This document shows, piece after piece, positions 22,145 through 45,509 of a stretch of DNA of 64,000 nucleotides. Source of the DNA: Megamonas funiformis (GTDB taxonomy: Bacteria; Bacillota; Negativicutes; Selenomonadales; Selenomonadaceae). Below the pieces are notes generated by a model. That model saw nothing but the letters and a program-made list of their open reading frames with translations. It ran no database searches and was not told the origin of the DNA. Position numbers and translations under genes: made by a program. The first letter of the stretch is position 1. Every line of letters begins with the position of its first letter. Location of the stretch: positions 2,369,292 through 2,433,291 of the forward strand of contig NZ_CP048627.1 of assembly GCF_010669225.1 (NCBI RefSeq), written 5' to 3'.

Positions 22145-22345
22145 TCCTACCTATCTCTCGCAGGTCATAACGGTGATTGACAAATAGGCAGTTCTTCTGA
22201 CTCAAGTTCATCGCTTCTTCAAGCCTTCCCAAGAAATATCTCAGTGACATAAATTTGAAGTTGCTCACTTTCACAGCGGCGGGACCGTAGCAGCTTTTAC
22301 TGCTTTCTCTATTAAGCCCAAAAGGGGCACCTATTCCACTCAATA
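22145..22345 (-). promoter_or_regulatory. cobalamin riboswitch controlling the cbiK operon
   Basis: Read on the minus strand, the region has the aptamer landmarks in order: GGTGCC near 22332, the conserved core GCTGCTACGGTCCCGCCGC at ~22270-22290, GTCACTG, GGGAAGGC, and the B12 box (AGTCAGAAGAACTGCC) at ~22187-22203. It precedes an exported cobaltochelatase, CbiL and a BtuFCD-like importer, and a terminator follows it, so binding of adenosylcobalamin should switch transcription off. Outer limits are approximate. Confidence 0.95.
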
Positions 22346-22412
22346 AATATAAAATTGTTAGAAAAATAATTTCATTTTTACAATAACACTTAAGAATATA
22401 TCTGTCAAGACA

Positions 22413-43301: not shown

Positions 43302-43652
43302 TTATTTTACAAATTTATCAATCGCTTCTTTTAATTTATCAATTGCCTCTTGGTCATTTTCCTTTACCGCTTCTACTAAACAATGTTCTATATGGTCTTG
43401 CAAAATTATCTTAGAGACATTTTTTATCGCTGAATTAACAGCTGATAATTGGATTAATACATCACTACAATCTCTATTTTGCTCCACCATACGTTTTACT
43501 GCACTTAAATGACCAATAGCTCTTGATAAGCGATTTAATACAGCTTTTGTCTGCGTATGCGTGTGTGTATGTCCATGATGAGCATGTACCGTTCCGTCTT
43601 CATGAACATGCCAAGCTGAATTTATTTCCTTATCATTATCATTTATTTCCAT
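43302..43652 (-). CDS. CsoR/RcnR/FrmR family metal-sensing repressor with His-rich N-terminus
   Basis: A 116-residue DUF156 repressor. The four-helix core spans ~35-115, with LNRLSRAIGHLSAVKRMVEQ, the first Cys in NRDCSDVL, and the His/Cys pair in LQDHIEHCL, matching the Cys-His-Cys copper site of CsoR. The first ~35 residues are unusual: WHVHEDGTVHAHHGHTHTHT has eight His in 20 residues and could bind nickel, cobalt, zinc or copper. The metal it senses is not certain. No adjacent metal efflux gene is seen; it sits 12 bases after an antitoxin-like gene. Confidence 0.88.
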   Translation of the reverse strand: MEINDNDKEINSAWHVHEDGTVHAHHGHTHTHTQTKAVLNRLSRAIGHLSAVKRMVEQNRDCSDVLIQLSAVNSAIKNVSKIILQDHIEHCLVEAVKENDQEAIDKLKEAIDKFVK

Positions 43653-43664
43653 TTAGCAAAAACC

Positions 43665-43853
43665 TCACTTTTTTTCTTGAGCATTCTTTGCCAAAAAAAT
43701 CTCTTTTTGTAATTCGTTAAATTGTTCCATAGACATTACTACAATGTTTTTACCACTACTGCGCTGTACAATCAATGTTTCTTTTTCATCAACAACTTTA
43801 TCAGCATAAATAGTAAATTCATTTAATAAATCAGAAGATGATATAGCCATCAT
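43665..43853 (-). CDS. Phd/YefM-family antitoxin-like protein (orphan)
   Basis: A 62-residue protein from the ATG at 43853 (ribosome site AAAGGATG). Its pattern matches the DNA-binding half of Phd/YefM antitoxins: SSDLLNEFTIYADKVVDE, then TLIVQRSSGKNIVVMSMEQF. No RelE/YoeB/Doc-type toxin lies beside it; the neighbours are a CsoR-like gene and a small unknown gene. It may be an orphan antitoxin or a repurposed regulator. Family assignment is from a short sequence and therefore moderate. Confidence 0.7.
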   Translation of the reverse strand: MMAISSSDLLNEFTIYADKVVDEKETLIVQRSSGKNIVVMSMEQFNELQKEIFLAKNAQEKK

Positions 43854-43903
43854 ATATATCACATCCTTTCCAACTAAAATAATAAAATATAACACAATTT
43901 ATA

Positions 43904-44134
43904 TTAACAAGAAGAAATTCCCAATCTAGGGTGCTTCACAGGTTTTAAACTGCGTTTACGAATAATCGTTAAAGCCTCACTCATGGAAATATCTTCTCGT
44001 GAAGAATTTTCTTCAAAAACACAAATAGGATTTTTCACACCTATCTCTGAAGCTGGCATATATACATATTCTAAATTGACATTATCTCCATAGATAACAC
44101 CATCACATAAATTAGCTTCAATCAAAGTTCTCAT
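43904..44134 (-). CDS. small protein of unknown function
   Basis: A 76-residue protein I do not recognise. It starts 15 bases after corA with a good ribosome site (GAGGTTTTT before the ATG), so it is probably translated from the corA transcript. It has two Cys near the ends and one in the middle, a basic C-terminal third (IIRKRSLKPVKHPRLGISSC) and no membrane segment or signal peptide. No function is proposed. Confidence 0.6.
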   Translation of the reverse strand: MRTLIEANLCDGVIYGDNVNLEYVYMPASEIGVKNPICVFEENSSREDISMSEALTIIRKRSLKPVKHPRLGISSC

Positions 44135-44149
44135 AAAAACCTCTTTACT

Positions 44150-45103
44150 CTAAAACATATTCTTTCGCCACAATACTGTCGCACAGATACCAGCTAAAAG
44201 CACGGCTAAAATACAAATATCCAAAAATGCCAATGGATTTTCTGACATAGGCACTTCCACATTCATGCCAAAAAAGCTAGAGATTACAGTCGGTATAGCT
44301 AAAATAATTGTCATAGCAGCTAAAAAACGCATTACTAAGTTCAAGTTATTCGACATTATCGAAGAAAAGGTATCAGCAAGCCTAGCCAAAATTGTACTAT
44401 ACATCTCAACCATTTCTCGAGCCTGTTTATTTTCAATAATTACATCTTCTAGTAAATCTTCATCTTCTTCGTATAACTTTATAATATTTTGCAAACTATG
44501 ATTAGAGCGCAAACGCATGAGTTTTTCAAGCACTGCACCATTAGAACGCAAAGAAGCATTAAAATAAGTAAGTGCTTTTTGTAATTCCAATAAACGTAAA
44601 ATCTCTCTATTTTCAGTGGACTCACGCAATCTAGCTTCAATTTCATCAGAAAGTTTATCTATTTGACGAAGATATTTCAAATAATATGTAACAGATTTGT
44701 ACAAAATTTGAAATAAAAAGCGTGTTTTCTTGAAGGTGCGAAAAGAACGATATGTTCTTTCATTAAAATCTGAAATCACAGGCGTATCTTCTAAGCATAC
44801 AGTGATAATATAATCTGGAGTCAAGATAATCGCTAATGGCAAAGTATCATAAGATTCAAATGTTCTCATCACTGGCACATTAGTCAAAATCATAATCGAA
44901 TTATCTTCTATATCTGTATGTGAACGTTCCTCATTATCTAGTGCTGAACGCAAAAAATCTGGTTCTACTTGAGTTAAATTACCTACTACTTTCAATTCAT
45001 AAGGAGTAGGCGCCACTATATTTATCCATGCTCCTTTTTCCAATGATTTTAATGTCAATTCCTTTAAAGGACCTGTTTCCATGGATTTATAGATTTTCAA
45101 CAT
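44150..45103 (-). CDS. corA: CorA family magnesium/divalent cation transporter
   Basis: A 317-residue CorA protein. The large cytoplasmic N-terminal domain is followed by two C-terminal membrane helices (~255-280 and ~290-310). The pore signature FFGMNVEVPM (GMN motif) sits between them. CorA pentamers carry Mg2+ and some Co2+ or Ni2+ down the electrochemical gradient. Its 5' leader encodes a short peptide and a terminator, suggesting attenuation control. Two small genes and a CsoR-like gene follow on the same strand. Confidence 0.93.
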   Translation of the reverse strand: MLKIYKSMETGPLKELTLKSLEKGAWINIVAPTPYELKVVGNLTQVEPDFLRSALDNEERSHTDIEDNSIMILTNVPVMRTFESYDTLPLAIILTPDYIITVCLEDTPVISDFNERTYRSFRTFKKTRFLFQILYKSVTYYLKYLRQIDKLSDEIEARLRESTENREILRLLELQKALTYFNASLRSNGAVLEKLMRLRSNHSLQNIIKLYEEDEDLLEDVIIENKQAREMVEMYSTILARLADTFSSIMSNNLNLVMRFLAAMTIILAIPTVISSFFGMNVEVPMSENPLAFLDICILAVLLAGICATVLWRKNMF

Positions 45104-45126
45104 TGCGATAGATTTCTCCCTTCTCT

Positions 45127-45195
45127 AAAAAACCTACCACAATTTATTATTTAACTAAAAATTTTGTAATATCTTTGATAAATAATCGGGTAGGT
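45127..45195 (-). terminator. leader attenuator terminator upstream of corA
   Basis: On the minus strand, ACCTACC (from 45189-45195) pairs with GGTAGGT (from 45132-45138), and inside them ATTATTTA pairs with TAAATAAT across an asymmetric internal loop; six T follow at once (45127-45132). The left arm lies inside the small leader ORF (45155-45253), so a ribosome there would block the hairpin. It stands 24 bases before the corA start. Confidence 0.75.
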
Positions 45196-45253
45196 ATCCT
45201 CTATATTTATTTTCTTGATAATTTAACTTGTTACTCTCCGGATACTCGTCCAT
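45155..45253 (-). CDS. putative corA leader peptide (32 residues)
   Basis: A 32-codon ORF in the corA 5' leader, starting at an ATG with GGTTGGTGA upstream and stopping at TAG. The peptide begins MDEYPESNK (two acids and a Pro close to the start) and later reads YRGYLPDYL; it has five Tyr and two Pro. Its codons 19-25 form the left arm of the terminator that precedes corA. Upstream GTATCC (codons 3-5) can pair with GGATAC (codons 19-20), a possible alternative structure. It resembles in design the MgtL-type leaders of Mg2+ transporters, but no sequence family is recognised. Confidence 0.6.
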   Translation of the reverse strand: MDEYPESNKLNYQENKYRGYLPDYLSKILQNF

Positions 45254-45295
45254 AATTATTCACCAACCTTTATAATTTAAGATATTGCATAATTA

Positions 45296-45324
45296 AGTAT
45301 AATTCATATGATATAACTTATCAA
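45296..45324 (-). promoter_or_regulatory. promoter of the corA leader transcript
   Basis: Minus strand: TTGATA at 45319-45324 and TATACT at 45296-45301 with a 17-base spacer. Transcription would start near 45289, giving a leader of ~185 bases before corA. Confidence 0.6.

Positions 45325-45420: not shown

Positions 45421-45509
<89 letters not shown>

Follow-up and report, generated by a model that had tools for sequence, protein, structure and literature searches.

What controls corA in Megamonas funiformis, where a short upstream open reading frame (uORF) with its own ribosome-binding site lies between the promoter and the gene? Enterobacteria are known to use leader peptides that sense Mg2+ by way of destabilised ribosomes. 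We analysed the locus in a 64,000-nucleotide stretch of contig NZ_CP048627.1 (hereafter, the window) together with the corA upstream regions of related bacteria. We favour, with moderate confidence, the view that the element acts in cis as a leader-peptide switch, controlling initiation of corA translation and responding to Mg2+. Translation of the peptide is probably the magnesium sensor that sets corA expression, the sensing part is likely the first ~6 uORF codons, and the output of the switch is most likely translational.

The leader is encoded on the minus strand (Table 1). A preliminary description of this DNA had read a promoter (TTGATA-N17-TATACT), a 32-codon uORF with a Shine-Dalgarno (SD) sequence, and a corA start at 45103, all of which lie where it placed them; ACCTACC (45195-45189) is likewise complementary to GGTAGGT (45138-45132), with a T6 run at 45132-45127. 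Most relatives carry promoter-like pairs (best score of at least 9 of 12) ~40-80 nt 5' of the uORF, in excess of mononucleotide shuffles. A divergent tRNA-Ser(TGA) gene (45421-45509, plus strand) stands directly upstream of the leader, and the corA leaders of several relatives (eight recorded) likewise have tRNA genes close by.

Table 1. Features of the corA leader and gene in the window (M. funiformis)
Feature	Position	Strand	Basis
Sigma-70 type promoter, TTGATA (45324-45319), 17-nt spacer, TATACT (45301-45296)	45296..45324	-	Sequence reading
uORF Shine-Dalgarno region, AAAGGTTGGTGA	45260..45271	-	GGTGA-type SD seen again in relatives
uORF, 32 aa, MDEYPESNKLNYQENKYRGYLPDYLSKILQNF	45155..45253	-	Equivalent uORF in 123/150 corA upstream regions
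Acidic/Pro N-terminal codons M D E Y P E, conserved, proposed sensor	45236..45253	-	Conservation in relatives
Arm L, in uORF from codon 18, core ACCTACC 45195-45189	45179..45200	-	Folding
Arm R, core GGTAGGT 45138-45132 pairs with L; 45143-45127 pairs with S	45127..45153	-	Folding
T6 run, read earlier as terminator tail	45127..45132	-	Not conserved
Arm S, between corA SD and first two start-codon bases	45102..45118	-	17 pairs with 45143-45127, -17.9 kcal/mol
corA Shine-Dalgarno region, GAAGGGAG, mostly within R:S hairpin loop	45116..45123	-	Sequence and folding
corA, 317 aa, CorA-family (PF01544) with GMN motif	44150..45103	-	Profile search

The corA product matches PF01544 above the gathering score (E 1.3e-47), its GMN motif (residues 279-281) is invariant in our alignment, and its sequence matches in the PDB are CorA entries only. 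Members of the CorA family can carry Co2+ or other metals, and this protein does not reach the TIGR00383 equivalog cut-off (100 bits vs 200.75); with that score below the cut-off, Mg2+ is its presumed substrate. CorA is single copy in 13 of 13 genomes and is the sole CorA of the window's genome too. MgtE was found in none of 31 sampled family genomes. The M-box, the second familiar Mg2+ sensor, was found in 3 of these 31 and is thus mostly missing; the window's genome is without it, and the window has no match to RF00380, the M-box (ykoK) Mg2+ riboswitch.

Other features of the window were recorded alongside. A 76-aa gene 3' of corA (43904-44134, minus strand) has no Pfam or NCBIfam match, and relatives of its product (YVYMPASEIG-like) seem to adjoin corA in several family loci. 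Further downstream are a gene resembling Phd/YefM-type antitoxins (43665-43895, minus strand), for which no toxin gene was identified, and one for a protein of 116 aa (43302-43652, minus strand), whose N-terminus, HVHEDGTVHAHHGHTHTHT, is rich in His and which we take to resemble a CsoR/FrmR-type metal-responsive repressor. A strong cobalamin riboswitch match (106 bits) occurs at 22170-22349 on the minus strand.

How widespread is the uORF? CorA orthologues are present in 141 of 151 family genomes and 217 of 250 class genomes, and we examined upstream DNA at 110 loci of the family (Selenomonadaceae) and 40 loci from 22 other families of the class. The search rule required a start of the form M-D/E-x(1-3)-P, which builds in an acidic residue 2. 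A uORF of this kind (M-D/E, early Pro, GGTGA-type SD) precedes corA at 98 of the 110 family loci; in 16 other Negativicutes families, 25 of the 26 loci have it, and it is missing in six families (14 loci). The finder scored 123 of 150 upstream regions, vs 0-4 of 150 (about 2) after dinucleotide shuffling and 6 when the reverse complement was scanned. Conservation of the uORF is far above chance, within one class and beyond.

Typical uORF starts are MDDHPSS, MDADHPR, MDGDHPS, MDAGPEP, MDTDYPSPEPP, MDDTPLQPEP, and MDVDRPS, with MDEYPES in the window and MDDYPES in its sister species. Searched as a DNA pattern, the MDDHP type matched once per genome in 43 of 151 genomes, each time directly 5' of corA by coordinates, with zero control matches. 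Control of other genes by the same leader was considered and rejected, as the pattern matches at corA only. Genera with such corA loci include Selenomonas, Mitsuokella, Pectinatus, Propionispira, Schwartzia, Anaerovibrio, and Centipeda. In a wider survey of the phylum, most corA loci outside the Negativicutes were without the uORF; three genera of one family have MDDPDAD or MDDPEAD uORFs, and MDSGPSNGES and MDDAGGSHS uORFs occur elsewhere. By inspection, these wider-phylum loci show the same complementarity of L, R, and SD. Leader peptides of the MDTDYP type contain a further Pro-rich motif, PSPEPP, a possible source of additional, EF-P-dependent pausing.

The preliminary description had proposed a leader peptide upstream of corA and named a conservation search in relatives as the trial of that idea. 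The idea has survived it: uORF and stems are conserved together, and the N-terminus is acidic and Pro-containing like those of Mg2+-sensing leaders.

Conservation of the peptide is limited to its first ~6 residues. Of 119 unique peptides, 109 carry a pair of acidic residues within positions 2-5 (the search rule itself makes residue 2 acidic), and 116 place their first Pro at position 5 or 6. Across 31 MDDHP leaders, a set grouped by that very motif, codons 2-5 vary at position 3 only (27%), and codons 17-22 vary at ~67% of sites. At residue 2, Asp is encoded by GAC in 54 cases and GAT in 36, with the residue kept; such free variation of the Asp codons points to selection on the peptide rather than on the DNA. 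The YRGYLPDYL stretch, to which sensing had earlier been assigned, is another matter: its residues are not conserved, and the stretch carries arm L. Attenuation by amino-acid starvation was also rejected, there being no run of a single residue and only the acidic residues and one Pro conserved.

The first Pro codon behaves differently from the Asp codons. CCT fills this position in 30 of 35 GC-rich leaders, vs 15 of 74 later Pro codons (p 1e-10) and 128 of 731 Pro codons of corA (p 3e-17), p-values that overstate independence because the leaders are related by descent. The Ser codon that follows is AGT in 18 of 21 GC-rich cases, and MDDHPS-type leaders nearly always have AGT there, GC-rich genomes included; the resulting CCTAGT puts a TAG stop in the -1 frame. 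The window uORF has CCG as its Pro codon, not CCT. A local hairpin at the uORF start (GGTGA with TCACC) does not explain the conserved CCT, since there is no excess structure (z 0.03). The pairing of GTATCC (45245-45240) with GGATAC (45199-45194), claimed earlier, is possible in the window and is not general (z 0.03 for the uORF 5' end plus L in 96 relatives).

These codon preferences bear on the nature of the signal. The same RNA switch could work with a uORF that reports something other than Mg2+, such as the status of the ribosome or of EF-P/tRNA-Pro, or another metal. The nucleotide-level constraint on the Pro codon and on the AGT codon after it fits such a role, many ribosome-destabilising conditions affect acidic/Pro motifs, and the possible cargo of CorA-family members extends to Co2+ and other metals. 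The strict association with corA and no other gene, with MgtE absent and the M-box mostly absent, favours Mg2+, and we regard a different signal as quite unlikely.

The conserved N-terminal codons are followed by RNA segments that can form two helices. In 96 non-redundant leaders, the L:R segment (codon 9 to just 5' of the corA SD) has a mean z of -2.60 and the R:S segment (around the corA SD and start) one of -2.33; control segments give +0.12 (without R) and +0.26 (first 45 nt of the uORF). Arm L starts at a median of codon 17.7 (IQR 16.7-18.7) and lies entirely inside the uORF in 94% of leaders, and the R arms of the two folds overlap by at least 50% in 90%. As folded from sequence, L:R and R:S are mutually exclusive, with R common to both, and each greatly exceeds shuffled sequence in stability. 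Their median energies are -27.2 and -21.8 kcal/mol. Genus-level alignments contain compensatory pairs in both helices. In a 12-sequence alignment, 96.5% of cells are paired for L:R and 87% for R:S, vs 56-74% and 44-66% for slid structures; the covariation scores, from modest counts, were equalled in 9 (L:R) and 5 (R:S) of 500 shuffles. In nearly all leaders R has a second potential partner in the corA SD/start region, which argues for control of translation initiation.

The preliminary description had instead seen L:R as an intrinsic terminator, so that uORF translation would set its formation and thereby attenuate transcription. A T-run does follow or overlap R in the window and in the sister species (leader tail GTATTTTG). 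Yet the loop would be ~50 nt, a terminator scan finds no terminator in the leader, and a U-tract after the L:R hairpin (at least 5 T of 8) occurs in 1 of 96 leaders. In the window, the corA start region (17 pairs) is a better folding partner for R than the left arm of the supposed terminator. Termination would make L:R the OFF state, yet nearly all leaders share R with a helix that sequesters the SD and start. We consider attenuation by this terminator very unlikely, and a trp-type attenuator is rejected more generally, as there is no conserved hairpin plus U-tract between uORF and gene.

Translational sequestration remains our preferred reading; equilibrium folding is one of its weak points. 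Its leader folding (z -3.3) pairs 45143-45127 with 45118-45102, the corA SD-to-start stretch. The two helices hardly differ in energy (-17.4 kcal/mol for L:R, -17.9 for R:S), and the full-length fold favours R:S. When equilibrium folding was simulated with a ribosome footprint, SD accessibility changed clearly in 17% of leaders vs 6% of shuffles, and not markedly in the window leader. The near-equal helices and the preference of the full-length fold for R:S account for the window result, and switching would have to depend on co-transcriptional kinetics.

We propose the following sequence of events. When Mg2+ is plentiful, ribosomes would pass the M-D-x-x-P codons and translate through L; with L covered, R would pair with S and corA initiation would be blocked. 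At low Mg2+, ribosomes would slow down or abort translation on reaching the acidic/Pro codons, roughly 12 codons 5' of L, owing to destabilisation by the acidic nascent chain and/or slow decoding of the conserved CCU Pro codon. Either event would let L:R form and release the corA start, and more CorA would be made. Mg2+ as the signal and peptide-driven abortion of translation are both suggested by analogy. The case for low Mg2+ draws on MgtL and mgtQ, the strict association with corA, the lack of MgtE, the single CorA, and the rarity of the M-box.

How does this element compare with known leader peptides? It shares with MgtL, CorL, and mgtQ a short, conserved uORF with its own SD, an acidic/Pro N-terminus, and mutually exclusive RNA structures. 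For both MgtL and mgtQ, the step that depends on acidic residues has been established (PMC11282234, PMC8092293). The mgtQ uORF of the Salmonella mgtCBRU operon is likewise tiny and acidic/Pro, with its own Asp2, Pro4, and Glu5; its acidic codons were shown experimentally to act on uORF translation, reducing it and increasing translation of the Mg2+ transporter, and alternative stem-loops mask or free the transporter's ribosome-binding site, a translational effect (PMC8092293). We propose a likeness to the corA leader on both counts. There are differences: mgtQ has 8 codons, lies between operon genes, serves mgtB (a P-type ATPase), and belongs to Salmonella and relatives. The mgtQ uORF overlaps stem arm 1 of four segments that pair as 1:2/3:4 vs 2:3, whereas here L lies ~18 codons downstream. 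Expression of mgtB falls when the mgtQ start codon is lost; for the corA leader, the prediction is that corA rises if the uORF is not translated.

MgtL, the leader peptide of mgtA in E. coli and Salmonella, resembles the corA leader in its acidic/Pro N-terminus (EPDP motif), its two exclusive structures, and the Mg2+ transporter downstream (PMC11282234, PMC6335274). The conserved first-Pro CCT of the corA leaders matches the CC[C/U] Pro codons conserved in MgtL, which are m1G37-dependent (PMC6335274). As with MgtL and CorL, translation of the uORF is proposed to work against expression of the transporter. MgtL differs in acting through Rho-dependent transcription termination, in its enterobacterial range, and in having no sequence relation beyond the type of motif. 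CorL of Salmonella and E. coli is also a uORF in a corA leader, with its translation opposing corA expression (PMC11552253); it differs in its UUG start, in the single Pro of its conserved part (PMC11552253), and, with the published corA motif, in being Rho-dependent and confined to gamma-proteobacteria (PMC11552253 and, in its main text, PMC6429828). Might Rho-dependent termination coupled to uORF translation, as in MgtL/mgtA and CorL/corA, operate here as well? In Salmonella and E. coli the same genes are involved, and an inverse relation of corA expression to that of the uORF is established (PMC11552253). Rho would be unnecessary, since R:S directly sequesters the corA start region, and we judge its involvement unlikely.

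The corA leader, with the translational output that we favour, appears to be new. The preliminary description knew of no such leader, and we likewise found no Rfam family or paper describing the element. The window leader has no Rfam match at the gathering threshold. Upstream regions of 14 relatives (E of at most 1) matched only neighbouring tRNAs or gave matches that overlapped these or fell far below the gathering score, and none of the corA leaders searched matched the Salmonella/E. coli CorL or corA-leader family. A riboswitch was rejected on the same ground of no Rfam match. The main texts of PMC6429828, PMC8632094 (a structured-RNA survey that includes Negativicutes motifs), and PMC11109978 do not mention the element. 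As judged by sequence, it has no visible relation to mgtQ, MgtL, or CorL, and it has another arm layout and sits in another part of the bacterial tree.

A broader proposal, which we rate at somewhat below an even chance, is that the Negativicutes and some further lineages of the phylum independently evolved a Mg2+ sensor in which an acidic/CCU-Pro leader peptide is the sole control, via translational sequestration, of the cell's only CorA/MgtE-type channel. Natural variation in these leaders, with acidic residues fixed, Asp codons free, and the first Pro CCU, can separate two explanations of MgtL-type sensing: the acidic nascent chain and m1G37-dependent proline decoding. The element would extend the enterobacterial sensing principle, here with translational output, to very distantly related bacteria, among them the rumen, gut, and oral anaerobes Selenomonas, Mitsuokella, Pectinatus, Anaerovibrio, and Centipeda, with one CorA, MgtE undetected, and the M-box mostly absent. 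If the proposal is true, this would be, as far as we have found, the first nascent-chain Mg2+ sensor outside the Proteobacteria, and the principle would be a general one.
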